64,000 nt of DNA from Methanomicrobiales archaeon HGW-Methanomicrobiales-3 (GTDB lineage Archaea > Halobacteriota > Methanomicrobia > Methanomicrobiales > Methanospirillaceae): positions 1 to 64,000 of the forward strand of contig PGYK01000004.1 in the NCBI GenBank assembly GCA_002839605.1, in the 5' to 3' direction. This document shows, in pieces, positions 5,001 through 64,000 of the stretch (positions are counted from its first letter, which is position 1; each line of letters begins with the position of its first letter). The notes below the pieces were generated by a model that searched no databases, was not told where the DNA came from, and saw only the letters and a list, made by a program, of their open reading frames with translations. Made by a program: the position numbers and the translations under genes.

Positions 5001-5119
5001 ATAATGAACGGGGAAAACATGGTTTGCGGGCAGTAATACATGGATTTGCGCAGGATTTTTGAAAAACCGGGCTTTGGAGCGGTAAAACAAAAAATTCTGT
5101 CTTATTCCAAATCAACTTT

Positions 5120-5138
5120 GCTTGTTCAGAGAACAAGC
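5120..5138. promoter_or_regulatory. Perfect inverted repeat upstream of thiC (candidate operator)
   Basis: GCTTGTTC and GAACAAGC are perfect 8-base arms separated by 3 bases. The palindrome sits about 63-81 bases before the thiC ATG and roughly 30-50 bases upstream of a weak TATA-like CTTTATC (5169-5175). Palindromes of this size suit a dimeric repressor. Archaeal thiamine regulators (ThiR type) are an obvious candidate, but this is inference. I saw no convincing TPP riboswitch core. Confidence 0.45.
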
Positions 5139-5200
5139 CAGATTTCGTTCAGATTTGAAAAACCGAGCCTTTATCTGGTCTTTCGGGCAACGGGTATGCT

Positions 5201-6478: not shown

Positions 6479-6485
6479 TTTTTTT
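6479..6485 (+). terminator. Oligo-T terminator after thiC
   Basis: Seven T residues follow the thiC stop codon directly. Archaeal RNA polymerase terminates at such T tracts without needing a hairpin. Confidence 0.45.
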
Positions 6486-6765
6486 ACCCGGGTAGCCATC
6501 AGGGCATACAACTGCCTGTCGATGTTTTTTTCGGAAGGATCGTTTTTGTGTTTTCCAGAACTACGTACCCTTTTATCTTGTTCCTGAAAGACGCCATGCC
6601 AATAAAAATCGCATCCACCTGATAAATGAACAAAATTTTTCCCGTTTTTCCCCTGTTTGAAAAACCCCGATGACGATTACTGCGGTAATAAACCCGGGAT
6701 GCACCGCAATATAATCAAATAATCTCCCGGACAAAAAATAACCGGAACGGTGATTTGCGATACAA

Positions 6766-7488: not shown

Positions 7489-7990
7489 GTTCTCAAATAT
7501 TGCTGCCGGCATGGGCATTCCGGTCATCGTCATGGGAGACCGGATCCGGCAGGCGGTCAAAGATGCAGGACTAGAACCCAATGATACCAATTTCGGGGCA
7601 ACTGCCAACCGCCTCCGGGCAGAGGGCGGCATGGATGCCATTGCCCGGCTCTGCATCCCCGAGATCCGGAAACAGGATGCCCCGCTCGTGCTTGTTGACG
7701 GAATACGCGGGGATACAGAAGTTACCCTGTTCAGGAAAACCTTCCCGGGTTTTACCCTCATCAGCATCGATTCCTCGTTCGAAAATCGTCTTGAGCGGAT
7801 AACCGCACGGGCACGGTCCGATGATTTCACCTCGGCAGATGCCCTCCGTAACCGGGATGAGCGGGAACTCGGGTGGGGCCTTGGGAACGCCCTGAAAGTG
7901 GCAGATATCCATGTCAAGAACGAGGGGACGCTTGAGGGATTTGCCGATGAAGTGCATGCACTCCTTGCACGACTGGGGGGAAGTCCATGA
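7442..7990 (+). CDS. UPF0200 family nucleotide kinase-like protein
   Basis: About 182 residues. It begins MKVIGVVGLPASGKGE, a P-loop (GLPASGKGE) like that of dephospho-CoA kinase and adenylate kinase relatives. UPF0200 is an archaeal AAA-type family of unknown substrate. The SD AAGGAGGTG lies nine bases before the ATG at 7442, which settles the start against an upstream in-frame GTG/ATG extension. It overlaps the radical SAM gene by 47 bases and the next gene by 4 (ATGA). This overlap implies translational coupling. Confidence 0.88.
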   Translation: MKVIGVVGLPASGKGEFSNIAAGMGIPVIVMGDRIRQAVKDAGLEPNDTNFGATANRLRAEGGMDAIARLCIPEIRKQDAPLVLVDGIRGDTEVTLFRKTFPGFTLISIDSSFENRLERITARARSDDFTSADALRNRDERELGWGLGNALKVADIHVKNEGTLEGFADEVHALLARLGGSP

Positions 7991-8760
7991 CGATTGTTCC
8001 CTTCTTTTCGTCCTCTGCCAAAGTCTGGGACGATATCGCATGGGTGCCGGCGATTGAAGAGGCTGGATATACCGGCTGGGAGATTGTCAGCGACGGGAAC
8101 TACCGGCTCGATGACCCGGCCTGCCGGGCACGGGTAGAGGAAACACTTGCAAGCACCAGCCTGAAGGTGACCGTGCACGCCCCCTACGGGGACCTGAACT
8201 TGGCAACCCTCAACGATCCCATTTACCGGGAATCCATCCGGCAGATCTGCACCTGCATCGAACATGCATCCCGGCTGACCGACCGGGTTACCATCCACCC
8301 CGGCTACCTTTCCCCGGTCGGCAAACTGATGCCCCAGAAGGTCTGGAATCTCCAGAAAGATGCCCTCCGCGAGATCGGCAGGTGTGCGGTTGAACACAAC
8401 GTCACGGCCTGCCTTGAAAATATGATCGAGATCAAGGAGTTTCTCTGCCGGTTCCCTGAGGAACTCATCGGGATGACCGAAGGCATTGAAGGTATCGGTA
8501 TGACGTTTGATTTCGGGCATGCCAATACCGTAGGAAAAGTAGAGGATTTCTTACAACATGTCGGAAAAGCCCGGCATGTCCACATCCACGACAACAACGG
8601 TCTTTCTGACGAACACCTGGCCCTTGGCGCCGGGACGATCAACTGGGAGCGGGCTGGGAAGATCATCGCGTCCAGCTACCAAGGTATTGCAGTCGTTGAG
8701 GGACGATCTGTTGAAGAGGGAAAGAAGAGCCTCGCGGTATTTGGGAAGTGCTTTGTATGA
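7987..8760 (+). CDS. Sugar phosphate isomerase/epimerase-like TIM-barrel protein
   Basis: 257 residues of the xylose-isomerase-like/AP endonuclease 2 superfamily. Metal-ligand-like residues appear in order: a VHAPYGDLN block, ITIHPGY-type (VTIHPGYL), LENMIEI (Glu ligand), FDFGHANT (Asp/His) and VHIHDNNG. Such proteins isomerise sugars or cut abasic DNA, and the substrate cannot be read from sequence. It overlaps both neighbours by 4 bases (ATGA), so it is part of a four-gene operon ending in RNase Z. Confidence 0.85.
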   Translation: MTIVPFFSSSAKVWDDIAWVPAIEEAGYTGWEIVSDGNYRLDDPACRARVEETLASTSLKVTVHAPYGDLNLATLNDPIYRESIRQICTCIEHASRLTDRVTIHPGYLSPVGKLMPQKVWNLQKDALREIGRCAVEHNVTACLENMIEIKEFLCRFPEELIGMTEGIEGIGMTFDFGHANTVGKVEDFLQHVGKARHVHIHDNNGLSDEHLALGAGTINWERAGKIIASSYQGIAVVEGRSVEEGKKSLAVFGKCFV

Positions 8761-9698
8761 GCGGCGAGACTCTGCACATTCACTTCCTTGGAACAGCCGG
8801 GGCATTACCGACACCGCAGCGCAACCCGCCCTGCATCATGATCCGGCGCGGCTCTGACACCCTCCTCTTTGACTGCGGCGAAGGGGCACAGCAGCAGATG
8901 ATGCGGGCACGGTGCGGGTTCACCATCAATGCCATCTTCATCACCCACTGGCATGCCGATCACTTCCTTGGCGTCTTCGGGCTTGTCCAGACCATGTCCT
9001 TCAACGGGCGCACCGAACCCCTCACGATCTATGGGCCGGAGTGGGTGCACGAGTTTGTCAAAACCCTGCGCCAGGTTGCCCGGTTCAACCTGAAATTCCC
9101 GATGGAGTCGGTGGAACTCAACCCCGGCTCATGGGTTCGGTTTGACGGGTACACGATCACCGCATTTGGCGTAAATCACGGCATCCCTTCGCTTGGTTTT
9201 GTCCTTGAGGAGGACTCCCGGCCGGGCAGGTTCAACCGCGAGATGGCCATTGCCCTCGGCGTCCCCCCCGGTCCGCTCTTTGGCCGGCTTCAGCGTGGGG
9301 AGCCGGTGATGGCGGGTAGCGGGGATGATCGCCGGGAAGTCCGTCCGGAACAGGTCATGGGCAGAAAGCGACCGGGACGAAAGATCGTCTATACCGGGGA
9401 TACCCGGGCAATCCCATTCGAAAACCTGGAGATCGCTCATGATGCAGATATCCTCATCCACGATGCAACATACGATGAGTCAGAAACTGCAAGGGCTGCG
9501 GAGTTTTTCCATGCAACGGCAGGACAGGCGGGAGAGGCAGCCTCTGCCCTGTCCGCACGGGCGCTTGCCCTTGTCCATATCAGTTCCCGGTATACGGATA
9601 ATACCGCCCATCTCAGCGATGCTCAAAAGAAATACGGCGGCACGATCCTTGCACCCAATGATCTCGATATGATTGAGATCACCTTCCGTGACGAATGA
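8757..9698 (+). CDS. rnz: Ribonuclease Z (tRNA 3' processing endonuclease)
   Basis: 313 residues, standard for short-form RNase Z, which cuts tRNA precursors after the discriminator base. The metallo-beta-lactamase motif THWHADH occupies residues 63-69 and binds two zinc ions. FDCGEGAQQQM and the C-terminal HISSRY block are also diagnostic, and HDATYDE carries the later metal ligand. Start at 8757 gives an ATGA overlap with the epimerase-like gene; a longer frame to 8748 is not needed. A seven-T tract follows the stop. Confidence 0.96.
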   Translation: MSGETLHIHFLGTAGALPTPQRNPPCIMIRRGSDTLLFDCGEGAQQQMMRARCGFTINAIFITHWHADHFLGVFGLVQTMSFNGRTEPLTIYGPEWVHEFVKTLRQVARFNLKFPMESVELNPGSWVRFDGYTITAFGVNHGIPSLGFVLEEDSRPGRFNREMAIALGVPPGPLFGRLQRGEPVMAGSGDDRREVRPEQVMGRKRPGRKIVYTGDTRAIPFENLEIAHDADILIHDATYDESETARAAEFFHATAGQAGEAASALSARALALVHISSRYTDNTAHLSDAQKKYGGTILAPNDLDMIEITFRDE

Positions 9699-9704
9699 AT
9701 TCCC

Positions 9705-9711
9705 TTTTTTT
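9705..9711 (+). terminator. Oligo-T terminator after rnz
   Basis: A seven-T run lies six bases after the rnz stop codon, at the end of the four-gene operon. It is the only such run before the next promoter. Confidence 0.45.
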
Positions 9712-9814
9712 ACGTAGTATAACAAGTAAATTAACCTTTGGCAATCCCATTCATTAGTATACAAAAACCATGAGCAGCCGCAGTGATCTGCGAAAGCGTT
9801 GACGATACCAAAAT

Positions 9815-14788: not shown

Positions 14789-15298
14789 TTAATTCTTCTC
14801 TATATCCTTAAACATCTTATGGACGTCCAGCCAGATGATCAAGGTTTTTGGCTCGCCCTCCTTTGCATCTGCACCCGAATTGATGATCCCCTTGATGTAT
14901 CGCGCCTCGTTTCCGGCAATACTTTCGGTCATGCAATCAACCTGGGAGGCGGCGATCTGCGTAACACTGCTCACCGTGTCAACGATAACACCGACATTAT
15001 TCCCGCCCGCAACCTCGGCCATCAGGACAATGATCTTCTGGTCCTTTGTGATCGGCCGGTCCGGGAGTTTTAAGAAGGTGTTCAGGTTCACGATGTTCAC
15101 GATCTCGCCCCGGAGGTTGATGACGCCCCGGATATGAACCGGTGCCCGCGGGATTGCGGTGATCGGCATCATCTCCACGATCTCGCGGACAATGTTGATG
15201 TCCAGCGCATAGTTCTCCGATTCTAAGGTGAACTCCAGGACTTCACCGGAATTCCCGTTCATGCACTCTCCTGCATTGGTGCTGCTTTCTGCTGCCAT
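14789..15298 (-). CDS. cheW: Chemotaxis coupling protein CheW (copy 1)
   Basis: 169 residues with one CheW SH3-like domain: EFTLESENYALDINIVREIV, then PHIRGVINLRGEIVNIVNL. CheW links receptors to the kinase CheA. This copy lacks the long Glu/Pro-rich N-terminal tail of the two other CheW proteins in the window and is only loosely similar to them. Start at 15298 is set by GAGGT nine bases upstream. It lies 22 bases before cheR and is probably co-transcribed. Confidence 0.93.
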   Translation of the reverse strand: MAAESSTNAGECMNGNSGEVLEFTLESENYALDINIVREIVEMMPITAIPRAPVHIRGVINLRGEIVNIVNLNTFLKLPDRPITKDQKIIVLMAEVAGGNNVGVIVDTVSSVTQIAASQVDCMTESIAGNEARYIKGIINSGADAKEGEPKTLIIWLDVHKMFKDIEKN

Positions 15299-15345
15299 GA
15301 TGATGTACCTCATCTCAGACTTTTCGTGATGGCAAGAGCATCACG

Positions 15346-17007
15346 CTACCGGAATAACCCTTCCGGTACCAGGATTTCAAATCGCACACCCTTGCCGGCT
15401 TCACCGGTCTCGTGGATGGAGAGACCGGTGATTGCCAGAACTTCGCGGGAGAAGAACAGGCCATAACTGATACGGCCCCGCCGCGTATGCTCAAAGACCA
15501 GTTCCTTTTCTTCATTTGGGATCCCTGCCCCGTCATCTTCATACACCAGGACCAGGTTCCTGCCCTGTACCTGGGAGAAGAACCGGATGGCGGTCACGGT
15601 TTCGCCGTGTTCTAAGGAATTTTCTATCAGGTTGGCAAACACCCGCTCGATCAGATCGTCGCTGAACACTTCGACATTCTTAACACTCGATTCAACGGTA
15701 ATGTTCCCGAGAGGGAGCGTTGCTGCCGCGGCAAGGAACCGGTCCCCGATATCCTTCCACTTGGGCGGGCGGACACCGATGTTCTGGTAGTCCCGCGTGA
15801 AATTGATCTGGTGCTGGATCTGGGCAATCACCTTCTCCTGCTGCTCAACAAAGTGAAGGAGTTTTTCGTTCAGGGGCTCGTTTTTTATGAGTTCTAAGGA
15901 CAGGCGCAGGTTCGTGATGCCGTTGAGGATATCGTGCCGGGTGATGCTGGTCAAAAGGACGATCTGCTTGTTGGCATGCCGGAGTGCATCTTCCACCCGT
16001 TTGCGCTCGTGGATATCGGCAATCACCCCGTGGAACCCGGACCCGCCGGGTTTGTTCGCCAGGGTTTTTCCGGATATCTGTACCCAGCGGATTGTCGAAT
16101 GCATGGTCATGAGCCGGAACTCGAAGGGTCCGCCAAGACCCCGCCGGATCAGGTCAAGACCCTTTTCAAAGGGAACCGTATCTTCAGAATAAATATATTC
16201 CTGGAGACGTTTTCCCATCAGATCGGACGGAGCATAGCCGGTCAGGTTCTTGATCGCCGGACTGACATAGGTTATCAGGTCATTATCATTGAGGGTGAAG
16301 ATCACTTCCGTGATGTTCTCCACCAGAGCCCGGAATTTGGCTTCGGACTCAACAAGAGCTTTTTCGATCTTTCGGTGCTCGGCAATCCTGCGCTGGAGCT
16401 CAATCTTTTCCGGTGAGCCTTCCTTACTCTCCTCAAGAGCTTTTGGAATGCTCCCCAGCTCTGAATCCGTCACATGCGGGAGCTGTTCAAAGATCAGCCC
16501 GAGTCCCCGACCCCCTTTTTCTAAGGAAAGCGGGATCATCTTTAACCGGAATTTCTCTTCACGATCATTGATGGCAAATGTTGCAATATGTACCTGTTCT
16601 TTGCCTTCACGGGCTTTTTTTAGCAGATCCATTACCTTGTGGTCAACATAGGGCGCGAGAGCGGATTCGTCGATCCGTTCACCGATCATGCCTTCAATGT
16701 CAAGTGAAAGGAGGCTGATGAGCGGATCATTGATCTGCTGGATCACCAGTTCATTGCTCAGTACTGCAATGCCGTCCTGCCACAGGTTCAAGAAATTCGA
16801 CATCGGCAGTTTGGGCGAGAGCGTAAAGATCTTGGCCGGGCCCAGGTTCCGCTTCTTGATCTCACCGGACGCAATTAAAAAGTTCAGGTACTTGGCTGCG
16901 GTGGTCCGGTTGATGGAGAGCTGCCGCGACACCTGCTCGATGGTCAGTCCGGCCGGATTCTGCCCGAGCAGATCGGTAATTCTCTTGATTTCCTCTTCGC
17001 GCACCAT
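15346..17007 (-). CDS. HTH-PAS-PAS-histidine kinase
   Basis: 553 residues. N-terminal winged helix (1-62: LTIEQVSRQLSINRTTAAKYL), then two PAS-like regions (about 70-175 and 225-345), an H-box (TSITRHDILNGI, about residue 367) and a HATPase with N-box FANLIENSLEHGE and G1 motif DDGAGIP. The kinase part is of the methanogen-type with HDxxN. Fusing a DNA-binding domain to the input end of a kinase suggests it may bind its own target promoter. AGGA lies nine bases before the ATG. It leads the cheW-cheR operon and is divergent from the receptors. Confidence 0.88.
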   Translation of the reverse strand: MVREEEIKRITDLLGQNPAGLTIEQVSRQLSINRTTAAKYLNFLIASGEIKKRNLGPAKIFTLSPKLPMSNFLNLWQDGIAVLSNELVIQQINDPLISLLSLDIEGMIGERIDESALAPYVDHKVMDLLKKAREGKEQVHIATFAINDREEKFRLKMIPLSLEKGGRGLGLIFEQLPHVTDSELGSIPKALEESKEGSPEKIELQRRIAEHRKIEKALVESEAKFRALVENITEVIFTLNDNDLITYVSPAIKNLTGYAPSDLMGKRLQEYIYSEDTVPFEKGLDLIRRGLGGPFEFRLMTMHSTIRWVQISGKTLANKPGGSGFHGVIADIHERKRVEDALRHANKQIVLLTSITRHDILNGITNLRLSLELIKNEPLNEKLLHFVEQQEKVIAQIQHQINFTRDYQNIGVRPPKWKDIGDRFLAAAATLPLGNITVESSVKNVEVFSDDLIERVFANLIENSLEHGETVTAIRFFSQVQGRNLVLVYEDDGAGIPNEEKELVFEHTRRGRISYGLFFSREVLAITGLSIHETGEAGKGVRFEILVPEGLFR

Positions 17008-36980: not shown

Positions 36981-37304
36981 ATGCCCGGGCTCGCCATATC
37001 TGCCTCGCGAAAAAGCGCTGCGATAAAGAAACTCGAAGCGGCAGCACCGGCTATCCGCACGAAGTTCGGCGTGACACGGATTGGGATCTTTGGATCATTT
37101 GCCCGGGGTGAGCAGACACGCAGGAGCGATGTGGACATCCTCGTCGATTTTGCAGAGGGCTACGCGACCCTGAAAAATTTTATCGGCCTTTCCGATTATC
37201 TCGAAGCACTTTTCCGGCGCAGAGTGGATCTTCTTACCGAACGCTCGCTCTCCAGCCTCATCAGACCCTATATCGAAAAGGACGTGATCTGGATTGAAGG
37301 ATGA
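36981..37304 (+). CDS. mntA: MntA-type nucleotidyltransferase antitoxin
   Basis: 107 residues. GSFARGE (38-44) and SDVDILVDF (D50, D52) are the nucleotidyltransferase motifs. MntA proteins modify HepT with AMP and so block it. GGAGG lies nine bases before the ATG. It overlaps the next gene by 11 bases. Together they form a standard two-gene toxin-antitoxin module. Confidence 0.93.
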   Translation: MPGLAISASRKSAAIKKLEAAAPAIRTKFGVTRIGIFGSFARGEQTRRSDVDILVDFAEGYATLKNFIGLSDYLEALFRRRVDLLTERSLSSLIRPYIEKDVIWIEG

Positions 37305-37632
37305 CCGGGTCCTGATTACCCACATCATCAGTGAAATAAAATTCCTGAGGAAGATTACGGCTGACCGGAAGTACGAGGATCTGCTGTCAGACGAATATTT
37401 CTCACATGCGGTTATCAGGGCAATTGAGGTGATCGGGGAAGCTTCAAAAAACCTTTCGCCCCGACTCAAGGAAGAGCATCCTGATATTGCATGGCGGGAG
37501 ATTGCCGGCATGCGGGACAAGGTGATCCATCGGTATTTTGAGATTAACTGGCAGATTGTCTGGAGCGTTATCAGTGATGACCTGCCGGGTCTTGAACCAG
37601 AATTCTCCCATCTCCTTAAAGATTTAGAATAG
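37294..37632 (+). CDS. hepT: HepT-type HEPN ribonuclease toxin
   Basis: 112 residues, helical. RDKVIHRY holds the Rx4HxY motif (R74, H79, Y81) of HEPN RNases, the Tyr being the site that MntA adenylylates. It begins with TTG at 37294, inside the end of mntA. Members cleave RNA when freed from their partner and can act against phage. Sits at the left edge of the accessory island. Confidence 0.92.
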   Translation: MKDDRVLITHIISEIKFLRKITADRKYEDLLSDEYFSHAVIRAIEVIGEASKNLSPRLKEEHPDIAWREIAGMRDKVIHRYFEINWQIVWSVISDDLPGLEPEFSHLLKDLE

Positions 37633-37653: not shown

Positions 37654-37730
37654 GGGGTTGGGGGAGGGGGGCCGGGTTTGATTTTTTTTAGGTGGGGGGG
37701 TCTCCCCCCTCCCCCCCACCTCAACATTGG
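37654..37730. repeat. R3 repeat copy 2
   Basis: G runs, then CCGGGTTTGATTTTTTTTAGG, then a seven-G run, TCT and C runs ending CACCTCAACATTGG. The seven-G and seven-C tracts can pair around TCT. It is a near match to copy 3, about 115 bases downstream in the same orientation. Confidence 0.7.
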
Positions 37731-37844: not shown

Positions 37845-37916
37845 CAGGGGGGAGGGGGCCCCGGTTTGAAATTTTTTGGGAGGGGGGGTCTCCCCCCACC
37901 CCCCAGCTCAACAATG
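37845..37916. repeat. R3 repeat copy 3
   Basis: Same layout as copy 2: CAGGGGGGAGGGGGCC, GGTTTGAAATTTTTTGGG, seven G, TCT, C runs, then CAGCTCAACAATGG. Together copies 2 and 3 form a direct repeat just before the Cas1-like fragment and the large AT-rich gene. This is consistent with an insertion boundary. Confidence 0.7.
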
Positions 37917-37940: not shown

Positions 37941-38135
37941 GATCCGAAAAAGATATTGAGTATCCCTTATGTTGAGTGGAAGAAACGCGGATTTTCTAAA
38001 GGGACGTTGCATCATCTGAAAAAACAGGCCGAGGGGGATAAGCCGTTTTACTTTCAAAAGCAGGTGATGACACGGCTTGATCAATGGGATCAATCCGTTG
38101 ATAAATGTGGATCAACGGTTGATGGGATGAAGTGA
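37941..38135 (+). pseudogene. Fragment resembling the C-terminal end of Cas1
   Basis: A 64-codon frame with no start, preceded directly by stops. It reads DPKKILSIPYVEWKKRGFSK, then GTLHHLKKQAEGDKPFYF and ends near VMTRLDQWD plus a tail. The block EWKKxGFSKGTLHxLK...PF...H/QV..RL..W is, from memory, like the end of CRISPR Cas1 proteins. No upstream Cas1 core remains. The tail overlaps an inverted repeat (CCGTTGAT / ATCAACGG). Assignment needs a profile search. Confidence 0.4.
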
Positions 38136-38202: not shown

Positions 38203-41200
38203 ATGTCAATAGAATGGGAACGTTTGAGATCTTTTAATGGATCTGTCGAATCTGCTTTTGAAGAACTTTGTACACAACTTGTCTCAAATGAAAAATATCC
38301 CGAGGGATCTACCTTTATTAGAAATGGAACTCCTGATGGGGGAGTAGAATGCTATTGGACATTGCCTGACGGTAGCGAATACGGATGGCAAGTAAAATTT
38401 TACACAGACCTAAAAAACCCCTCTCGTTGGGGAGATATCGATGAATCTGTTCATACTGCTCTTACAAATCATCCAAAATTAGTCCAATATACCATCTGTC
38501 TCGCATTAGATCTTCCGAAAGGGGGAGCTCCTGGAACAACTTCGGCAAGGGTACGATGGACTAGTCACGTAAAAAAATGGGAATCGATTGCAAAAGATAA
38601 GGGAATGTCAGTTGATTTTCAATTTTGGGGTAGTCATCAGATATGGACACGATTGAGTGCAGAAGAAAATCGTGGCCGATATTATTTTTGGTTTAATAAA
38701 GAAATCTTCAGCAATGACTGGTACGAAAAAAGGGTAAATGAATCAATTGCTAATGTTGGGCCGCGATACTCCGATAAGTATAATGTTGATTTACCAATTT
38801 CCGATATCTTCAATGGATTTGGACGGACAGAGGAATTTTTCAGAATAATTCCACCTCTATTCAATAATATCCAAAATGCGTACAAAAAACTGAACCTAGA
38901 CATAATTGAGGAGATTACAGGGGAGTCGGGACAAATTATTGACCCTGATATTTGTAAGCTGAAAGAAATTCATGAAAATATTTTTAAAAATCAACTCGAT
39001 GTTATCAATTTGAACTTAATTAATAATTTATGTGTATCATTGTCCAAAAGGATTTCAGATTGGATAAGAACCATTTCGGACAAAATTTCATCTGAAGAAA
39101 AAGAGTGGGCACTACAAAATAAAAATCGTGATGAACTTTATCTTCATCTACAAAAATTTAAAGATCCTTATTATGCTCTTTTAAAGTTAGATCGGGAATT
39201 ATCGATGCTCGGTGAATTTGCATCGGGCAATGTTGCGAGATCCGCGAATGTTCCGATATTGATAGTGACAGGTAATGCTGGAAATGGTAAGACGCATCTT
39301 TTTTGTGATGTTGCGTTACAAAGAATAGAGAAAAAATTACCTACAATCCTTTTGTTAGGAGGACATTTTAACGATGAAGAACCTTGGAATCAAATAATTA
39401 TTCAGCTCGGTTTAAATTGCTCCCGAGAGGAATTTTTGGGGGCTTTAAATACAACCGCTGAGATTGCAGATTCAAAATGTCTTATCTTTATTGATGCGCT
39501 AAATGAGGGTGCCGGGAAAAAGTTGTGGAGGAAATATTTAGCTGGAATGATTAAGACCCTAAAAGAATATCCCCGATTGGGAATGGTTCTTAGCATTCGA
39601 AGTTCTTACACCAAGATCATTATCCCCGAAGGTATTTCATCAAATGATTATATCGAAATTTTTCACGAGGGATTTTCTGGTTATGAAGCTGAAGCGACAA
39701 AAATTTTCTTTGAACACTATAAAATTGAGAGACCCACCATCCCCCTACTTAATCCTGAATTTAAAAATCCCTTATTTTTGAAAACATTTTGTGAAGCCAT
39801 CCACAATCATGGTGAAACTACAATTCCTAAGGGGATTCAAGGGATATCAAAAGTCTTTGATTATTATATCGAATCAATTGATCAAAAACTATCCCGAGAA
39901 GAATATTTGGATTTTGATCCAAGATTGAAAATTGTTCAAAAAGCAATGAAAAAAATTGCATTACAGATGGCTAAAAACGGAAAACCTTGGTTATTATACA
40001 AATATGCTAAAAATATTGTTGACAAGATTTTAGGCGATCAAAGACAATCCCAATCTCTATTCCATCATTTGATTTCCGAAGGAACACTCTCTGAAGATAT
40101 TATTTGGGATAGAGAAAATCACCATGATGAAATAATTCGATTTCCGTACGAACGTTTTTCTGATTATTTAATAACTGATAGTTTGTTTGAATTATACCTG
40201 AAATCGGGAGAAATTAGTGACTTGTTTAATCAGGGAAAGCCACTGTATCAACTCATCAAGGATGAATCAACTTGTAGGCAGAATCAGGGATTAATCGAAG
40301 CACTTTCTATTCAGATTCCGGAGCGCTACAAAAAAGAGCTTTCAGATATTGCACCGCATTGTGCAAATTTTGACTCAGTACGAGAGGCATTCATAAATAG
40401 CATAATTTGGAGGCAGCCTAACGCGTTTTCAGACTCGACATTACCGTATATTAATAATTATATTTTCAAAAGGAGAGGTCGTTCAAACCGAGATTTGGTA
40501 TACCCGCTGTTGGATGCATTCTTGTTAGTCTCATCCAATCCAAATCATTCATTCAATGCAGATCGTCTTCATAAATGGCTCTTAAATATTAAATTTGCAG
40601 ACAGAGACAGTTTTTGGACGGTTTATTTATATTATCGATATAACGATGAAACAATAATCAGTTCTTTAATTGATTGGGCATGGTTTAGCGAAGTAAAAGA
40701 AGACATTGATCGGGACTCACGACGATTATATGGAATAACTCTCGCCTGGTTCTTGACATCATCTCATAGATTTTTACGAGACAGAACAACTAAGGCGCTC
40801 GTATCAATATTCTCGAATCATATTGATATTCTCCATAATGTTATCAAGGATTTTAAAGATGTAGATGACCCCTATGTATTGGAACGTCTTTTCGCAGTTG
40901 CATATGGTTGTGCAATGCGGAGTAATGATAAGCAAAACATTACACTGCTGGCAAAGGACACCTTTACTTGGATCTTCCAAGCTGGATGCCCTCCACCCAA
41001 TATCCTTTTGCGCGATTATGCCCGAGGTGTAATTGAATGCGCCATCCAAAAAAATGGAGATTTAAATATTGATATTGGAAAAATCCGGCCACCGTATTCA
41101 AGTGAATGGGATGATACTGCATCTAATAAGAGTAAATTAAAACGATTTGAGAAACGTATTAAAAAATCAGGCAAAACCCTTCGAGCAACCGATGAAATTT

Positions 41201-42816
41201 ACAGCTCAATAGTAGGTTTTGGGGATTTCGCTCGATACATCATAGGAACAAATTCTGATTCGTTCAATTGGTCATCTAAACGGTTGAAAAATTCACGACT
41301 TAGTGTTTCTGATAGATACGACATTTTTGTAAAATCATTAGACGGTGACAAGTTAGATGCATGGAAGAAGTTTCTAACATATTATAATGCGAAGAAGCTC
41401 CCAGTTGAAACCAGAAAAGATGGCATAATCACAATGACGTTCGGAAATAAATATTCCGAAAGTACGATTTTAAAATACGCGAAATTATTTTTCAAATGCC
41501 TGAATGCACAAGAAAGGAAGATATATATTAAATATATTATCCCGTATCTTCAAAATCCTCGAAAGTACAAAAAAGACGATGGTAAATTCGATATTAAGAA
41601 CGCACAGTTATGGATCTTAAAAAGAGTGTTTGATCTAGGTTGGACAGAGAAACGGTTTGGTGATTTTGATAATTGGATGATTTCTTTGAATGATCGCAAG
41701 TATATGCGATCTGCAAATAAACCTGAAAGAATTGGAAAGAAATACCAATGGATAGCCTATTATGAATTTCTTGCAAGGGTGTCGGATAATTTCAAAATTA
41801 AAAAAGAACATTGGAATGTGGAAGCTCCTTCAAAATATGAGGGGACATGGCAATTTTATTTGCGGAATATTGATCCTTCTTGTTTATTAACAAAAAGCAA
41901 ATCCCCAGAAAATATTTCAGACAAATCACAAAAATACTGGTGGTTCGCTATCGATGAATATTCAAATAAAAAACACGATGAAAATGATGAAAAGTGGTTA
42001 TCTTGTTCCACTGACCTTCCTGATGTAAGAACGTTAATTGAAGTAGTAAATCCCGAAGATAAATCAGTTTGGTTAAATTTAAATTCCATATTTAACTGGT
42101 ATCCCTTCCCGTTTTCGGATAATGGAATGCATCAAAAAACGAAACGAGAATTATTCTATCTAATTCATGGATATATCGTTAAAAAATCAGATATTGATCG
42201 GGCATATGAGTGGGCTCAAAAGCAAAATTTCAGTGGAAGGTGGATGCCTGATCCTTGGGAGTTCCATGAAATCTTACTGGGAGAATTCGTCTGGGCTCCC
42301 GCTTACTTAAGTACAACCTCTAATGGATATTCTGAATGGTCTTCAGGAGAACATCATTCACACAAAATCCCCGTTTCGATTCATAATCCTTGTATTGAAT
42401 ATCATTGGAGTCATGGAGAATATGACTGTTCTTCAGAAGAGGGAAGGTCAATTTCTATGCCTTCAGCATGGTTGATAAATAAAATGAATCTATCTTGGAA
42501 TGGGGTGGAAGGAAAATGGTATAATAATAAGGGAGAACTTATCGCATTTGATCCATCTGTAAATACTCAAGGCCCACATTCTCTTCTGGTTAATAAAAAA
42601 ATTTTCAGGTCTTTCTTAACTAAAAATGGCTATGATATTTTTTGGGCTCTTCTCGGAGAAAAAAACATATTTATCGGAGCTCCCCCGGCGAGTCGTTTGA
42701 ATATAACGGGCTCATATCGGATGGTGGATGACGAAGTTGTTGGGACGAAAAAATCAACGTATCAAGTTTTTGAGGGCGGCACAAAAAATAGAGAGAGAAA
42801 ATCCATCAAGACATAA
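38203..42816 (+). CDS. Avs-like antiviral STAND NTPase with N-terminal nuclease domain
   Basis: 1537 residues. The N-terminus looks like a PD-(D/E)xK nuclease: helix AFEELCTQL, then D45/E49 in TPDGGVECYW and Q63-x-K65 in GWQVKFY. A P-loop NTPase follows: Walker A GNAGNGKT at 357-364, Walker B CLIFIDALNEG with D431, and LSIRSSY near 464. The remaining 1000 residues look helical, as in sensor arms of STAND proteins. The DALNEG form and architecture resemble Avs defence proteins, which sense phage proteins and then cut DNA. Strongly AT-rich against its neighbours, suggesting transfer. No SD; start is the first ATG. Confidence 0.72.
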   Translation: MSIEWERLRSFNGSVESAFEELCTQLVSNEKYPEGSTFIRNGTPDGGVECYWTLPDGSEYGWQVKFYTDLKNPSRWGDIDESVHTALTNHPKLVQYTICLALDLPKGGAPGTTSARVRWTSHVKKWESIAKDKGMSVDFQFWGSHQIWTRLSAEENRGRYYFWFNKEIFSNDWYEKRVNESIANVGPRYSDKYNVDLPISDIFNGFGRTEEFFRIIPPLFNNIQNAYKKLNLDIIEEITGESGQIIDPDICKLKEIHENIFKNQLDVINLNLINNLCVSLSKRISDWIRTISDKISSEEKEWALQNKNRDELYLHLQKFKDPYYALLKLDRELSMLGEFASGNVARSANVPILIVTGNAGNGKTHLFCDVALQRIEKKLPTILLLGGHFNDEEPWNQIIIQLGLNCSREEFLGALNTTAEIADSKCLIFIDALNEGAGKKLWRKYLAGMIKTLKEYPRLGMVLSIRSSYTKIIIPEGISSNDYIEIFHEGFSGYEAEATKIFFEHYKIERPTIPLLNPEFKNPLFLKTFCEAIHNHGETTIPKGIQGISKVFDYYIESIDQKLSREEYLDFDPRLKIVQKAMKKIALQMAKNGKPWLLYKYAKNIVDKILGDQRQSQSLFHHLISEGTLSEDIIWDRENHHDEIIRFPYERFSDYLITDSLFELYLKSGEISDLFNQGKPLYQLIKDESTCRQNQGLIEALSIQIPERYKKELSDIAPHCANFDSVREAFINSIIWRQPNAFSDSTLPYINNYIFKRRGRSNRDLVYPLLDAFLLVSSNPNHSFNADRLHKWLLNIKFADRDSFWTVYLYYRYNDETIISSLIDWAWFSEVKEDIDRDSRRLYGITLAWFLTSSHRFLRDRTTKALVSIFSNHIDILHNVIKDFKDVDDPYVLERLFAVAYGCAMRSNDKQNITLLAKDTFTWIFQAGCPPPNILLRDYARGVIECAIQKNGDLNIDIGKIRPPYSSEWDDTASNKSKLKRFEKRIKKSGKTLRATDEIYSSIVGFGDFARYIIGTNSDSFNWSSKRLKNSRLSVSDRYDIFVKSLDGDKLDAWKKFLTYYNAKKLPVETRKDGIITMTFGNKYSESTILKYAKLFFKCLNAQERKIYIKYIIPYLQNPRKYKKDDGKFDIKNAQLWILKRVFDLGWTEKRFGDFDNWMISLNDRKYMRSANKPERIGKKYQWIAYYEFLARVSDNFKIKKEHWNVEAPSKYEGTWQFYLRNIDPSCLLTKSKSPENISDKSQKYWWFAIDEYSNKKHDENDEKWLSCSTDLPDVRTLIEVVNPEDKSVWLNLNSIFNWYPFPFSDNGMHQKTKRELFYLIHGYIVKKSDIDRAYEWAQKQNFSGRWMPDPWEFHEILLGEFVWAPAYLSTTSNGYSEWSSGEHHSHKIPVSIHNPCIEYHWSHGEYDCSSEEGRSISMPSAWLINKMNLSWNGVEGKWYNNKGELIAFDPSVNTQGPHSLLVNKKIFRSFLTKNGYDIFWALLGEKNIFIGAPPASRLNITGSYRMVDDEVVGTKKSTYQVFEGGTKNRERKSIKT

Positions 42817-42847: not shown

Positions 42848-43390
42848 TTATTTTTCAGATAGTTTATCGTCGATAAATTTCTTATGTTTTTCAAAAATTT
42901 TGTGTGTTGTCATAAAATCCTCCCATTTTTTCATACAATCCGCTGCGAGGTTAAAAGCATCAATGGATTCTCCGTTATCAAGTACAAGATAAAATTTCAT
43001 GATTGCCCCTACTAATATGCCATCCTTAAGATGGGGAAATACATGAGGTTGCAATTCAGATTGTTGTCCACTTCTGGTTGGAATATTGCCGGGAGAGAAA
43101 TGTTTTGTTCCGTTTGCGATATCGGCACATAACTGCAAGCATTCATTTATACTGATATATTGTTCAACCGTTTTTCTCCATTCAGTTGAAAATTCATCCT
43201 CTTTTATTAACCAATCTTTGAGGTGATAACAATTCATAAAAAAGGCAAGAACGTCATCATATTGCTGTTGTATATCGATATCTTTTGTAGATCCCTCGTT
43301 GATGGCTTTGAACCGTTCAAACCATCTTTTGACTCTTTGATATTGATCAAACGCGCGAGTATTTAGTGGAAGTTTTCTAACTTCGGTCAT
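42848..43390 (-). CDS. HEPN-like helical protein, convergent with the STAND gene
   Basis: 180 residues, not assigned to a named family. Helical, with LQLCADIANGTKHF (N93 to H97), which looks like the NxxxxH/RxxxxH catalytic turn of HEPN proteins. It is AT-rich like the STAND gene and its end lies 31 bases from that gene's end. The shared base composition and placement suggest arrival together. It could be an RNase partner or a bystander. AAGG lies about eight bases before the ATG. Confidence 0.6.
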   Translation of the reverse strand: MTEVRKLPLNTRAFDQYQRVKRWFERFKAINEGSTKDIDIQQQYDDVLAFFMNCYHLKDWLIKEDEFSTEWRKTVEQYISINECLQLCADIANGTKHFSPGNIPTRSGQQSELQPHVFPHLKDGILVGAIMKFYLVLDNGESIDAFNLAADCMKKWEDFMTTHKIFEKHKKFIDDKLSEK

Positions 43391-43782
43391 GAAGAAAGCC
43401 TTTGGTGTTATTCCTACTTACAACTTTTAAAACGAGCGCGCTGCTAATCAACCAATTTTTCAGAATAGTGTGAGATTACTAGAAGAGTTCAAAATTTACG
43501 GGATACCTATAACCCAAAAGCGCGATGCGAGGGATGGGATTCTGGACCTTAAGTGCGATTCGCAAACAGTAGATTTTTGCTGAATTTTGAAACGAAAACT
43601 GATTTGAAATTATTTGCTACGCACGATAAATAAATATTTTCCTGAAATCCGTTCAGCAAAAAAATGATAAAAAACGTAGACCGCGCACAGTATCAGCTCA
43701 TATTTTTTTCAGAGACCTTACGCTCAACAGGGCCCAGACCCCTTGTCGCGTGGGCTTCTCCTCAGATTTACAAAACAAAGCG
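43391..43782. other. Gap between the HEPN-like gene and repeat R2
   Basis: The AT-rich character fades toward 43.7 kb. Only short, unsupported frames are present. No repeat or RNA gene recognised. Confidence 0.4.
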
Positions 43783-44335
43783 AGCCGGTCCGCGGAGCAT
43801 GTGCGAGTGCGCCGAAGGTGCACGAAGCGTGCGGAGCGGGGCGGCGATCCACCCTCAGCTGATCAGGAGATAAGAAGACGTTCGGTCATGTTCACTCGTC
43901 CTCGCTGAGGCTCCGGCTCGCTTCACATCACCTCGCTGTTTTTCTTCGGTCGATCGGGCAGACGAAGACGCACCCCCTTGCTCGCAAGCTCGCGGCGGGG
44001 CTTGCTGTCCGGCCCGCTCCTCACACCATGCTCCGCATCGTGTTCGTCGCTGTTGATCGTACTCATGTCACACGTTCAGTGACTCACTCGCACGACGCAT
44101 CAGGGGCTCGGACTCGATGCTGATGCATCTCGTTACCTTCGCACCCTGAAGCGGTGCTCGTTCGGGCCACTGCGGCCACGACTACCCGCCACCCGCTTCG
44201 CTCCTCCCGCCCTTGAAAGGAACGGGCAGTCATTAGGATAACCACGGGGTAAGGTTTCAGGTTGGGGGTGGGAGGATGCGAGCCGGAACACGGCGACCAT
44301 CGCCGTGTCGCGTGAGCATCGGGCGGGTCCAGGAA
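43783..44335 (-). repeat. R2 long GC-rich repeat, copy D (inverted)
   Basis: On the minus strand the order is: ATGACTGCCCGTTCCTTTCA, GGCGGGAGGAGCGAAGCGGG, CAACAGCGACGAACACGATG, GCGGAGCATGGTGTGAGGAG, CAGCGAGGTGATGTGA, GAACATGACCGAACGTC, GATCGCCGCC and a closing GCTCCGCGGACCGGCT. Every block occurs in the same order in copy E at 46435-46985 on the plus strand. Homology also continues inward through GGTTTCAGG and GGGTCC. D and E thus bracket the ArdC operon as an inverted repeat. Confidence 0.8.
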
Positions 44336-44671
44336 GATCAGGGCATCTCAACAGGACAGGCACACGGTAGCGGGTCCGGGCGGGAAGAAGGCGAGCCGGA
44401 TACGGGACCGCGGCCGGGCCCGTCGCGGGAGCCTTCGGGGTGGGCCAACCGTTGCCAAGAAAGATAATGCCAGGAGTCGATATTGTACCAACCCGGGCAG
44501 GGCTCTTTGATTGGCCTCATGGTGTCCCTGTCCGGGCCACTTTTTAGCGACAGAAAAAGATGATCCGCATCTTTGTCCGGTGCAGCCACCACCGCAGGCT
44601 TTTCCACATCCCAAAAATAGTTGATCGGTATTTCCGGTGCTCCCGGTATTTTCGCAGGCTGAGCATAGGAT
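44336..44671. other. GC-rich stretch inside the R2 bracket
   Basis: An 89-codon minus-strand frame (GTG at 44607 to 44338, opening MEKPAVVAAPDKDADHLF) continues the direction of the ArdC operon. It could be a fourth gene, but it has no good SD and its second half is Pro/Gly/Ser-rich like a shadow. I do not call it. Nothing else is visible. Confidence 0.3.
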
Positions 44672-44938
44672 CTACTCCGTCCGGATCCCGCTCGGCAGCG
44701 GATCGCAATGCCACGCGATCATATCAACCCGGTGCCGTTCTGCTATCAGGTTGTCGAGCCCCTCCCATGCAGCCTTATCCATCCACGACTTGATGATCTC
44801 ATCGTGCCTGTAGCGGAGATCTTGCGCTTCAGCCTGCAGCATGAATGCCCGGCGCTCCATCGCGGGTATTGCAATCTCGATGCGTTCGAGTTCTTCAAGG
44901 ACCTTGATCGGCATGGCGTCAAAAATGGTCTTGGTCAT
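44672..44938 (-). CDS. Small helical protein of the ArdC operon
   Basis: 88 residues, MTKTIFDAMPIKVLEELERI onward, almost wholly helical (ERRAFMLQAEAQDLRYRHDE). No family recognised. Its ATG overlaps the ardC stop by four bases (ATGA), which fixes the start and indicates coupling. A longer frame to 45262 is only a shadow of ardC. Likely an accessory or regulatory partner carried by the element. Confidence 0.7.
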   Translation of the reverse strand: MTKTIFDAMPIKVLEELERIEIAIPAMERRAFMLQAEAQDLRYRHDEIIKSWMDKAAWEGLDNLIAERHRVDMIAWHCDPLPSGIRTE

Positions 44939-45846
44939 GCTGAAACACCTTCCGCCGCATCGGTCCCGGTTGCACCGGCAGGGGCCGGGGTATTTACCCC
45001 GATCATGAAGTCCGCTGCCTTCTCTGCCCGGCCTGCTGCATACATCACGAGATCTGCGTCGGCCTTGATCGCCTTCGCCCAGTTCTGGAGGTATGCCTCC
45101 TGATTCTGAACAATAGCTGATGAGTCGATGCCGGTCAGCGCGGCCAGGTATGCACTCCCGATCTCGGCGACCAGTTCCTCGCGCCCGTAGGTGTCGGACC
45201 CGAAGCAGACCGCATCGGTCTTCTTGAACCGGTCGAGCCGGGGCCCGGTGGAGTGGATGCACTCATGGAACATCGTTGCATAATAGTGCTCGGAGGTCCG
45301 GAACTGGCGGATATCCGGGCAGGTGATGATATCCATTTGCGGGGAGTATGCGGCCCGGTCCCCTGCCGCGATCCGTATCGACTCCCGGCCCGCGTAGTCC
45401 TGAATGACAGCATCACACCCGAGGAGGTGCGGATTATCTTTCAGGTCCGGCAGTTGGTAGCCCTTCTCCTGATAATCGGTCTGGGCGATGTTGAAGACAA
45501 CGAAGGCTTTCAAAAACCGGATCTGTTTTCTGCTCTCGGTCTCCTTGCCGTTCTCATCGGTCTTCGTGTCGGTCTTGACGGTCCGGCCTGCGTAGATGAT
45601 CCCGGTCCCGTGTTCTCCGAACTGGACCTGTAACCCTGCGGCACGATACTGGCGATAGGTTGCCCAAAAAGGGAGAGGGTAGGGACTGAGCCCGAGGATC
45701 AACCGGTTCAGCCCGGTGTATGCCCTGCCGCTGAAGAGGTTCCGCGGGCCGTTCTCGGTCCATGGCTTCAGCCAGGGGATCTTCCCTTCCGAGAGCGCCT
45801 TTATGATCCGCTCGTTGATCTGTGCTTTTACGTCAGCGGCTTTCAT
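44935..45846 (-). CDS. ardC: ArdC-type anti-restriction protein
   Basis: 303 residues. N-terminal single-strand-DNA-binding-like domain about 1-125 (IPWLKPW, FSGRAYTGLNRLIL), C-terminal zincin-like peptidase domain with HECIH at 194-198 and EELVAEIGSAYL for the third ligand. ArdC proteins travel on conjugative plasmids and shield incoming DNA from restriction. Overlaps both neighbours by four bases. Its presence is a sign of a plasmid or integrative element, here enclosed by inverted R2 repeats. Confidence 0.92.
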   Translation of the reverse strand: MKAADVKAQINERIIKALSEGKIPWLKPWTENGPRNLFSGRAYTGLNRLILGLSPYPLPFWATYRQYRAAGLQVQFGEHGTGIIYAGRTVKTDTKTDENGKETESRKQIRFLKAFVVFNIAQTDYQEKGYQLPDLKDNPHLLGCDAVIQDYAGRESIRIAAGDRAAYSPQMDIITCPDIRQFRTSEHYYATMFHECIHSTGPRLDRFKKTDAVCFGSDTYGREELVAEIGSAYLAALTGIDSSAIVQNQEAYLQNWAKAIKADADLVMYAAGRAEKAADFMIGVNTPAPAGATGTDAAEGVSA

Positions 45847-46196
45847 GCTGGCACCCCGCCGGGCTGCATGGTCGAGACGTTCGCATATTTCCGCTCGCCC
45901 TTGAGCATCCCCTTTACCTGTGCGAGGGGGGAGACGTACTGCACATCGTTGATGGAGATCATCACGGCTTTACCGGACCGGGTGATCCATGCCTTCCCGA
46001 CCGGGGCCGCGTCCGCGTTCTTCATAACATCGGATATGTCATAGACTGCCGCAGGCCAGTGCTGTTCAAGTTTGTGTACTTCACTGGTGGGAATAACTGC
46101 CTGCATTGTTTTGACATCGATACGGACCGAGCTCTGATAGAGGCGTGCCGCCCCGATGTGCTCGAACTTTACATCTGTTTTTGTTGTTGGCCTCAT
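45843..46196 (-). CDS. First gene of the ArdC operon, unknown
   Basis: About 117 residues, basic and beta-rich (VDVKTMQAVIPTSEVHKL, KAWITRSGKAVMISINDVQY). No family recognised. The C-terminal KGMLKGERKYANV may bind nucleic acid, but that is a guess. GGTG lies about nine bases before the ATG at 46196; the upstream GTG at 46211 is less likely. Its stop overlaps the ardC start by four bases. Confidence 0.65.
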   Translation of the reverse strand: MRPTTKTDVKFEHIGAARLYQSSVRIDVKTMQAVIPTSEVHKLEQHWPAAVYDISDVMKNADAAPVGKAWITRSGKAVMISINDVQYVSPLAQVKGMLKGERKYANVSTMQPGGVPA

Positions 46197-46434
46197 GGTG
46201 TTTTTCACCATACATTCATCGACGTGAGAGCATATAACTCTCCGCCGTGCGCAGGGTGAAAGTAAAAGCGGTGCGCTGTCCGATTTGCGAAATAAGGCAA
46301 TTGCGGCGAATTAGTTTTTATTTTTACACAAGGCCCGCCCGGGCACACTGCGCGACAGGCCGCTGATGCGTCCTGTAACCGCGCCGTGTGACCATGACCC
46401 GCCCTCTCGGTTTTCTGTTAGTACGCGATCGCCC

Positions 46435-46985
46435 CGGTTGGACCCACCCGACAAAGCGAACGACCGTCCGCTGATGCGTCCGGTAACCGTCGCTTTGTCC
46501 TCCCTCCCCTGCCCTGAAACCGACCTCCGTTCCTATCGCTATGACTGCCCGTCCCTTTCAAGGGCGGGAGGAGCGAAGCGGGCGGCGGGTCCGGGGCCAA
46601 GCGGCCCGAGCGAGCACCGTGACAGGGGCGCGAAGGTAAGGAGCCGCATCAGCGGCGAGTCCGAGCCCCCTGTGCGTCGTGCGAGCGAGTCACTGAGCGT
46701 CTACGTTTTTGCGTCAACAGCGACGAACACGATGCGGAGCATGGTGTGAGGAGCGGGCCGGGGCAGCCGCTGGCGCCGGAGCAACGCGACAAGCCAGGGG
46801 CGTCATCCTACCAACAGGAAACTCCGGAAAACAGCAAGGTGATGTGAGCGGAACGGGCGCGAGCCCGTGGAGACGAACATGACCGAGCGTCTGCGTGTCA
46901 ACCGGGCAACCGAAGATCGCCGCCCGCGTCGCCCGCGTCGCACGACTACGACGTGCTCGCACCGCTCCGCGACCGGCTTGAATGG
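46435..46985 (+). repeat. R2 long GC-rich repeat, copy E
   Basis: Block order equals that of copy D in mirror image. Additional features: a perfect ten-base inverted pair GACAAAGCGA (46450-46459) / TCGCTTTGTC (46490-46499), and the direct repeat CTGATGCGTCC-x-GTAACCG at 46362 and 46471. Ends GCTCCGCGACCGGCT, 45 bases from the end of the convergent dhs gene. GC-rich, multi-hairpin and without a conserved reading frame. Confidence 0.8.
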
Positions 46986-61858: not shown

Positions 61859-62635
61859 TTAGCGATTGAGTTTTTTTTCATCTTCTTCTATCCACTCCTC
61901 TACCTGTTGAATATATCTTTCAATACTTTGTATTTTATCTTCAGATTCAGATAACCATCCTGCCCACCTATCGACCCATTCATCACTTCCTCCAGATGCA
62001 ATTTTAGATCGCAAATCTTCAGCATTTGCTTGAACTCGTCTGAGGGCATCGGTTGCAGAACGATGTCGGCTATAATTTGTTTCAAGATTTGCTTTTATCC
62101 TTGATTCAAAATCTGATTGTTTTTGCTCCCGTTCTGAACGGAATTTTCCCCACCAAATATCATGCGACCTTTGAATGTCCTGCATTTCATTAAAAATCAT
62201 CTGTTTATGTTCAGAGAGCATTTCCGCTTTATTTTCATGCAACATGATACCAGCTTTTTTAAGACACTTCCCATTTTCAATTAAATTTTCAACACGCGGA
62301 TAATTAGGGAAACAATCTACCATGCAATAGGTGTATAAATATTCATGGATCTGAGCGTATAGGCCATAGGATTTGCTCATACGTTTTTTATTGGTCTCTT
62401 CGATCTCCTCTTTTACACTGGCACAAAGAGAACCTTTTTCATTCCAGAGTTTTTCACGATCTTCACGTGAAAGAGGTTTTAGAGATTTGAATAAAATGTC
62501 AATTTCTTTTACTTGTGCCCAAAATGAGGAATAATTACGATTTTTTGAATCAGAATATCCCCGTGCTGAATCACGAAGCATTGATAGATATTGAATTTCC
62601 TTTTCAATCTTTGTAGCATTTTCTTTTGCAATCAT
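61859..62635 (-). CDS. Coiled-coil hypothetical protein
   Basis: 258 residues, mainly helical with long heptads (YIQQVEEWIEEDEKKLNR; RSEREQKQSDFESRIKANLE). No transmembrane segment and no known domain. TTGGAGAA precedes the ATG at 62635 by about six bases; a TTG seven codons upstream is weaker. AT-rich like the lipoprotein gene at 63083, suggesting a second transferred patch. Confidence 0.6.
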   Translation of the reverse strand: MIAKENATKIEKEIQYLSMLRDSARGYSDSKNRNYSSFWAQVKEIDILFKSLKPLSREDREKLWNEKGSLCASVKEEIEETNKKRMSKSYGLYAQIHEYLYTYCMVDCFPNYPRVENLIENGKCLKKAGIMLHENKAEMLSEHKQMIFNEMQDIQRSHDIWWGKFRSEREQKQSDFESRIKANLETNYSRHRSATDALRRVQANAEDLRSKIASGGSDEWVDRWAGWLSESEDKIQSIERYIQQVEEWIEEDEKKLNR

Positions 62636-62743
62636 AGAAAATTCTCCAATTTTCAAAGTTTAAATGCAATAGTCGCTCATTTTTTTTTTAATAGTAATAA
62701 AATGATTGAAGTTCATCCCGATAAACTTCAATTATCGTTCCAT

Positions 62744-62959
62744 TCATCGTTGGCGTTTTCTTCCGCTTGCACTGGGATCCATCACCCGAGCAACAAACAA
62801 CCCGGCCATAGAGATGAACCGCGGCCAGAAAACATTCCTCACCTGCTGATTCTTCCCGAAGGCCTCGATCACGACATCCACATCAGCATGCAGTCCGCGT
62901 TGAATCAGCTTCGGCAGGAACAGGACCGCCGCGCCGATGAACGCAAGCGTGATCTCCAT
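62744..62959 (-). CDS. Small two-helix membrane protein, possibly truncated paralogue
   Basis: 71 residues from the ATG at 62959. VVIEAFGKNQQVRNVFWPRF, then ISMAGLFVARVMDP, align with the partial gene at the window end (AFGKNEQVKKVFWTLF, ISMAGLVVAQVLDP). The tails differ completely (SASGRKRQR against VTAQQVVGMVMGM), so this copy has lost its normal end. No strong SD; a longer N-terminal extension is AT-rich and doubtful. Family unknown. Confidence 0.55.
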   Translation of the reverse strand: MEITLAFIGAAVLFLPKLIQRGLHADVDVVIEAFGKNQQVRNVFWPRFISMAGLFVARVMDPSASGRKRQR

Positions 62960-63082
62960 TCCGGGTTTGTATAATCCCCAATAAGTTTTCTGAATTTTTG
63001 ATATTTCGGTCGGAACCAAGTGAAAAAATCCCACTAATATGAAAAACAAAAACTTAATACGAGCTAGTTTAGAATTCACACC

Positions 63083-63613
63083 ATGGATAGTAAAAGTGTT
63101 GTGATTATTATAGTTCTGCTAATCTTTGCTGTATGTATTGCAGGATGCTCAAGTACCGCAACCCAATCTAGTACCTCATCACAATCAGCATCCTCAACGG
63201 ATGATGGCGACCGATCCCGTATTCTCAGAGGAATAGAACAAAATAGACTATCCTGCATTAATAATTTACCTCGCAGCTCTTCCACAGATGAGTGTAGTAT
63301 CACTTCATCCAATCAAGAGGCAGCGACGACTTATATCATTTCTCGTATAAAAGATATTGAAGATAAATGTCTTGCAACGCTTCCGAGATCAAAATCAACT
63401 GATGAATGTAAATTTTCAAATAAGGACAAATTGGATTTCGGATACTTGGGATACGACTGTTACTGTACAGCTGCGATGAATAATAGGGGGATAAAAATCG
63501 GAAGTGGGTCAAAGTGTGTAGACTTCGGCATGCATCTTATATGTTCCGATAGAACGATGTTTGTGAGCGATCCTCCAGAGATACATAATACTTGTTTCTT
63601 AACCAAGTATTGA
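63083..63613 (+). CDS. Small Cys-rich lipoprotein
   Basis: 176 residues. IIVLLIFAVCIAGC is a signal with lipobox (CIAGC). A Ser/Thr-rich linker follows, then two related units with LPRSSSTDECS and LPRSKSTDECK, suggesting an internal repeat, and several paired Cys (YDCYC, KCVDF, LICSD). Extracellular; function unknown. A TATA-like CTTAATACG sits about 25 bases before the ATG, so it may be leaderless. Confidence 0.7.
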   Translation: MDSKSVVIIIVLLIFAVCIAGCSSTATQSSTSSQSASSTDDGDRSRILRGIEQNRLSCINNLPRSSSTDECSITSSNQEAATTYIISRIKDIEDKCLATLPRSKSTDECKFSNKDKLDFGYLGYDCYCTAAMNNRGIKIGSGSKCVDFGMHLICSDRTMFVSDPPEIHNTCFLTKY

Positions 63614-63848
63614 TTTATCTCGTTATCCAATAGGATTATTTTTTTTAATAATTTTCCTCAATAAAAATTTTTAAAATCAATCACCAAAAACTCAAAACAG
63701 TTACATTGTCGGAATAAATCATGTTGAGAATTGAACTCTCGGTGTAAATGGGTCCTATGGGGATTGTGACAAAATAGTCAACTTCTTTTTTTTGGAAATA
63801 TCTACAATCAATTGCGTGATATTTTAAAAAAAAAATGTGTTTTTTTAT
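63614..63848. other. AT-rich gene-free stretch
   Basis: Long A and T runs. No gene, repeat or RNA recognised. Confidence 0.4.
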
Positions 63849-64000
63849 TCACACCCCCATCCCCATCACCATCCCAACCACCTGCTGAGCTGTCACCGGG
63901 TCCAGGACCTGTGCAACAACCAGCCCCGCCATCGAGATGAACAGGGTCCAGAACACTTTCTTCACCTGCTCATTCTTCCCGAATGCCTCGATCACGGCAG
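63849..64000 (-). CDS. Partial gene: small membrane protein, paralogue of 62744
   Basis: The C-terminal 50 residues only; the gene runs off the window. AFGKNEQVKKVFWTLF is followed by a hydrophobic helix (ISMAGLVVAQVLDP) and a Met/Val-rich end. The match to the gene at 62744 over about 30 residues identifies them as relatives about 1 kb apart. Function unknown. Confidence 0.7.
   Translation of the reverse strand, partial: AVIEAFGKNEQVKKVFWTLFISMAGLVVAQVLDPVTAQQVVGMVMGMGV

Follow-up and report, generated by a model that had tools for sequence, protein, structure and literature searches.

CRISPR arose from transposons of the casposon kind. Family-2 casposons are found in methanogens, and their Cas1 (the casposase) bears a C-terminal HTH fusion (PMC9939771; PMC4046053), the assignment of the C-terminal extension as an HTH domain coming from PMC4046053. 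The cargo in the original casposon paper includes methylases, a restriction enzyme and a KAP ATPase, and some genes are implicated there in defence (PMC4046053). Thaumarchaeal casposons carry OLD and HEPN nucleases. Among the Avs antiviral sensors, the large terminase is the target of Avs1–3 and the portal that of Avs4; binding leads to oligomerization and to the action of a toxic N-terminal effector, according to PMC12724215, which cites the primary work and also describes a Klebsiella Avs2 that binds a second protein, Ksap1. DNA cleavage by Avs1–4 is described in PMC12931631. In other Avs2 proteins, trypsin-like or membrane-like domains take the N-terminal position. The window is a 64,000-nucleotide stretch of contig PGYK01000004.1 from the archaeon HGW-Methanomicrobiales-3, and it holds an avs2 gene within the remains of a casposon (table). 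We consider it quite probable that this gene encodes a sensor of the nuclease–STAND–sensor type whose DNA cutting would be triggered by terminase, and that it came as cargo of a family-2 casposon, since decayed, at a tRNA-Leu-like site.

Features of the avs2 locus in the window, followed by the contents of the slot behind the casposase in related elements.
Feature	Positions	Strand	Description and basis
Family-2 casposase (Cas1) remnant, C-terminal residues 352–402	37944..38096	+	Similarity to M. cariaci casposase
avs2 gene, predicted Mrr-like nuclease, STAND NTPase, sensor	38203..42816	+	1537 aa; ORF, Avs2 models
Predicted N-terminal PD-(D/E)xK (Mrr/Avs4-type) nuclease domain and linker start	38203..38802	+	Residues 1–200; E20, D45, E49, Q63, K65
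Walker A (P-loop) GNAGNGKT	39271..39294	+	Residues 357–364
Walker B region	39481..39507	+	Residues 427–435; invariant D431, E435
STAND region end and predicted Avs2 sensor arm	39883..42813	+	Residues 561–1537; structure model
180-aa low-GC ORF inside element, convergent with avs2	42848..43390	-	Probably passenger
Putative casposon terminal repeat (one end)	43478..43515	-	GGGTTATAGGTATCC...; end similarity
Putative target-site remains, 18 nt identical to 3' end of tRNA-Leu at G034 casposon	43525..43542	-	Sequence identity
Slot, G034			GmrSD_N protein
Slot, G085			C5 methylase with Vsr
Slot, G102 newer element			TIR-domain protein and type I restriction
Slot, G102 older element			Type I restriction
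Slot, G109			1288-aa protein matching solved restriction endonuclease

The avs2 reading frame is single and unbroken over 1537 codons, and its N-terminus lines up with the N-termini of relatives in the alignment. It is the only avs2 copy in its genome, which also encodes McrA, in keeping with the methanogen host proposed by the first-pass annotation. The GC content of the gene is 36% in a window of about 54%, and its GC3 is 0.30 versus 0.77 in one flanking gene; these low values suggest that the gene was acquired. A Pfam search of the protein returned zero domains. The PADLOC Avs2 model PDLC02164 covers residues 1–1519 with 1634.9 bits, five more PADLOC Avs2 models also match, and the sole remaining PADLOC hit is negligible. 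The NCBIfam Avs2 equivalog NF041813 gives 1459.7 bits against a cut-off of 1000, and the solved Avs2 (PDB 9o4e) aligns with residues 169–1520 (E = 1.9e-218). The first-pass annotation recognized nothing in the C-terminal 1000 residues. The matches to PDLC02164, NF041813 and 9o4e identify them as a standard Avs2 sensor, and the protein resembles Avs2 (AVAST type 2) along the whole length of its STAND core and sensor, within a single polypeptide. PDLC02164 spans the N-terminal domain as well, so the nuclease–Avs2 architecture already lies within the family, and a collection scan gave 502 relatives. The curated models and predicted structures show this frame to encode a full-length Avs2 in one chain, where a predicted Mrr-type PD-(D/E)xK nuclease domain precedes a STAND NTPase and an Avs2-type sensor arm. 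As a protein it is unexceptional within an antiviral sensor family that is already known.

The residues on which the first-pass annotation built its nuclease–STAND proposal (D45, E49, Q63-x-K65, GNAGNGKT and DALNEG) all occur in the reading frame and are conserved among relatives. All 60 aligned relatives share F19, E20, D45, G47, E49 and Q63, and 59 of them also have K65. We take the conservation of E20, D45, E49, Q63 and K65 to be the pattern of Mrr-type PD-(D/E)xK enzymes. A model of the N-terminal domain, built from residues 1–200 with 59 relatives, is confident (mean pLDDT 90). Its sole PDB match below 1e-3 in Foldseek is the Avs4 N-terminus (8dgf, E = 1e-5), as expected for the nuclease fold that had been proposed, and its weaker matches include restriction enzymes among others. 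The N-domain profile aligns window residues 4–107 with Avs4 residues 5–107 (E = 9e-4), whereas its match to 9o4e is confined to the linker; the first 168 residues of the window protein do not match the 9o4e N-terminus and constitute a different effector. Membership in Avs4 itself was considered and rejected. The likeness to portal-bound Avs4 lies in the nuclease domain, whereas the STAND core, matched by Avs2 models only, and the sensor are of the Avs2 type instead of an Avs4-type core with a portal-sensing C-terminus. The protein is thus an Avs2 core with an Avs4-like predicted nuclease, and the same combination is found in many bacteria.

The DALNEG motif is placed after the Walker B strand. 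G357, G360, G362, K363, T364, D431 and E435 are invariant in a seven-row full-length alignment, and both Walker motifs are intact, as in a STAND NTPase. The model of residues 561–1537 is confident (mean pLDDT 87.5) and predicts an extended array of helices that finishes in a beta-rich part, which bears out the helical sensor arm that had been anticipated. Its only PDB matches below 1e-3 are two chains of terminase-bound Avs3 (8dgc, E = 5e-5), and the superposition is poor over the whole length. Avs3 is the top structural match, but it is only about 9% identical to the window protein and is a separate family by sequence. The Avs2 models, the nuclease fold and the sensor arm together uphold the Avs-type plan.

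By analogy with the studied Avs2 and Avs3 proteins, infection of the methanogen by a head-tailed virus would lead the sensor arm to bind a conserved protein of virion assembly, for which the large subunit of the terminase is the likeliest candidate. ATP-dependent oligomerization of the STAND ATPase would then bring the nuclease domains together, and the joined domains would cleave the DNA of both virus and host, halting the infection while sacrificing the cell. The relatives from which this trigger is borrowed are about one third identical to the window protein. Terminase_6N is present in 13 of 60 related genomes and absent from the avs2-bearing genome itself, and its presence in the relatives indicates that tailed viruses or their kin reach this lineage. 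The sensor might instead detect another viral protein, such as the portal or one restricted to methanogen viruses. Its identity of only about one third to 9o4e leaves room for such a change, as does the Ksap1 partner of a Klebsiella Avs2 in PMC12724215, but the sensor aligns with Avs2 through to its end and its model matches only terminase-bound Avs3 chains in the PDB below E = 0.001. We regard a different trigger as unlikely and terminase as the probable one.

The distribution of Avs2 is sporadic. A search of 120 relatives gave, in addition to the genome of the window itself, a single clear match and a single weak one, and a phylum sample of 393 genomes contained Avs2 in 6 further genomes. 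The tree joins the window protein to that of Methanogenium cariaci with support of 100, amid bacterial sequences, and the remaining archaeal copies are scattered over separate places. An AU test rejects the grouping of all archaeal copies in one clade (p = 1.24e-53). The first-pass annotation had suggested that the protein may be a new archaeal branch; on this reading it would be a deeply diverging STAND sensor whose sensor domain is novel, and the absence of any Pfam domain would agree with that. The full-length matches to curated Avs2 models and the rejection of an archaeal clade make it extremely improbable. Of the earlier reading, the Avs-type plan stands, and the unrecognized C-terminus and the archaeal branch do not; the casposon context had been missed.

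The M. cariaci avs2, 67% identical to the window gene, lies inside an intact casposon. The inverted repeats of this element are 38 nt long and 97% complementary (contig L016, 1508–1545 and 16369–16406), and the left repeat is preceded, at 11 nt, by the end of a tRNA-Leu gene. The element encodes a family-B DNA polymerase (PolB), an HNH-like protein and a Cas1 of 408 aa. In this Cas1, the Cas1 domain stops near residue 296, leaving a C-terminal extension; avs2 lies directly behind this casposase gene. An extended Cas1, PolB, HNH, terminal inverted repeats and a tRNA target are the features of a family-2 casposon, and here they are found intact with avs2 inside. The target-site duplication is imperfect at this element and exact, at 14 bp, in the related G034 and G085 elements, whose ends are 81 and 109 nt long, respectively. 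The M. cariaci avs2 (L016 10001–14611) has two frameshifts, near 11390 and near 14220, from either decay or sequencing error. A second casposon-end-like sequence occurs at L016 16424, and it is followed, just outside the casposon, by genes for a Wadjet-type JetA and a fragmented JetC (L016 18266–23643).

The window retains a casposase tail and one end of such an element. The 51 residues encoded upstream of avs2 correspond to the last 51 of the M. cariaci casposase (59%, E = 1.2e-14), and about 105 nt separate the end of this tail from the avs2 start. The fragment was also considered as CRISPR debris and rejected, as it matches the M. cariaci casposase and not the two other Cas1 genes of the genome. 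Downstream of avs2, the sequence GGGTTATAGGTATCC..., read leftward from 43515, resembles the ends of other casposons. Its scores against the ends of G034, G013, G028 and the second M. cariaci end were matched by none of 2000 shuffles; those against the M. cariaci and G102 ends themselves were reached by 58 and 180 of 2000, respectively. The end motif occurs once in the window versus 0.035 occurrences expected, and the tRNA-Leu-like 18 nt lies 9 nt from it, the same spacing as at the G034 casposon. A search of the left side of the window for a second end found none, and PolB and most of the casposase are absent. An intact family-2 casposon, with two terminal inverted repeats, a full casposase and PolB, was therefore rejected; compared with described family-2 casposons (PMC4046053, PMC9939771), just the tail and one end remain, and the missing second end and genes point to a decayed derivative. 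The sister genome G013 keeps both marks with flanks 84–87% identical to the window; the genes between the marks encode an ApeA-type HEPN protein, a DUF2971 protein and two proteins that resemble membrane proteins. The window avs2 is on the tRNA side of its element, opposite to the M. cariaci arrangement, and the G109 and G509 elements are oriented like the window. An empty site was sought in sister genomes, and the two flanks of the window locus were nowhere adjacent.

The 180-aa ORF inside the element has no family match and has a single distant relative (31–32%) in 295 genomes of the phylum sample. It was rejected as a companion gene of Avs2 because it lacks a family match and was not found beside other avs2 genes.

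Several other features occur near the locus. Just upstream of the casposase tail is an MntA-like nucleotidyltransferase and HepT-like HEPN pair (36981–37304 and 37294–37632, + strand), a type VII toxin–antitoxin kind that scores below curated cut-offs. A 57-nt direct repeat, 88% identical (37660–37716 and 37848–37904), lies between the HEPN gene and the tail. An ArdC-like anti-restriction gene (44935–45846, - strand) falls within 44009–46761, bracketed by inverted repeats of 48–93 nt (44009–44276 and 46498–46761), and for the most part is conserved in G013 and G019. A further low-GC stretch (38.6%) takes up the window end (62001–64000), with a 265-aa ORF (61859–62656, - strand) of no clear family match at its edge. 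Casposase C-terminal tails of about 30–120 residues with the rest of the gene absent recur in G012 (contig C329), G003, G010, G023, G027, G028, G066, G087, G098, G113 and G115; some of them may represent a similar HTH that has been reported for the ends of casposon PolB (PMC4046053).

Carriage of avs2 by a casposon is seen directly in M. cariaci and is argued for in the window on the basis of the one end, the tail of 51 residues and comparisons with the M. cariaci and G013 loci. Alternatively, avs2 could belong to an ordinary defence island and have inserted next to an old casposase fragment, independently of the casposon. Such an origin would fit the lack of a second end and of core casposon genes, the nearby MNT/HEPN pair and ArdC gene, and the absence of a casposase from most archaeal avs2 loci examined; none was found at those of Methanoculleus, Methanoperedens, haloarchaea, G012 and G170 in the DNA examined, which is short for some. 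Against it, the closest relative sits within an intact casposon at the same position behind the casposase, the window avs2 stops short of a casposon end that adjoins a tRNA-Leu-like site, and G013 has other cargo in the same slot. These comparisons make an independent arrival rather improbable. In the favored reading, a casposon would have brought avs2 as cargo to the tRNA-Leu-like site and later decayed to the casposase tail and one end, while the defence gene stayed.

Related elements are located at tRNA-Leu genes in G034, G085 and G102, the last with two in tandem. Sister casposons have different defence genes behind the casposase (table), and so there appears to be an exchangeable defence slot at this position. 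The DNA flanking the slot is 92.5% and 90% identical between M. cariaci and G102 (3614–9716 and 15170–16406), and the slot content is wholly different. By our count in a small sample of 12 slots, in elements found by casposase similarity, 8 contain recognizable defence genes, which are not obvious in G028, G509, G503 and G474. At the cargo-side end, between the slot and the terminal repeat, there is an HFX_2341-type CARF protein (L016 15491–16240; G102 contig C1 765861–766588) that is possibly a regulator. We lean towards the view that the position immediately after the casposase gene serves as an exchangeable defence slot in the family-2 casposons of these methanogens, that these casposons still spread Avs2, ApeA, TIR-domain and restriction systems among archaea, and that the slot may outlive the transposon as a hotspot. 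Our limited literature search found nothing joining casposons with AVAST, and the casposon cargo reported in the literature searched (methylases, a restriction enzyme) includes no Avs. Within those limits, the defence slot and the casposon-borne Avs2 seem not to have been described previously.

With the window protein, a known sensor family gains a methanogen example. The archaeal Avs2 genes have no single archaeal origin, and effector domains are swapped on a conserved sensor. The casposon setting of avs2 matters more than the protein itself. Should it be the rule that casposons hold antiviral genes in one such slot, a search behind casposase genes or their tails at tRNA-Leu genes could reveal new defence systems of archaea, and relatives of the ancestor of CRISPR adaptation would be present-day vehicles of innate immunity.
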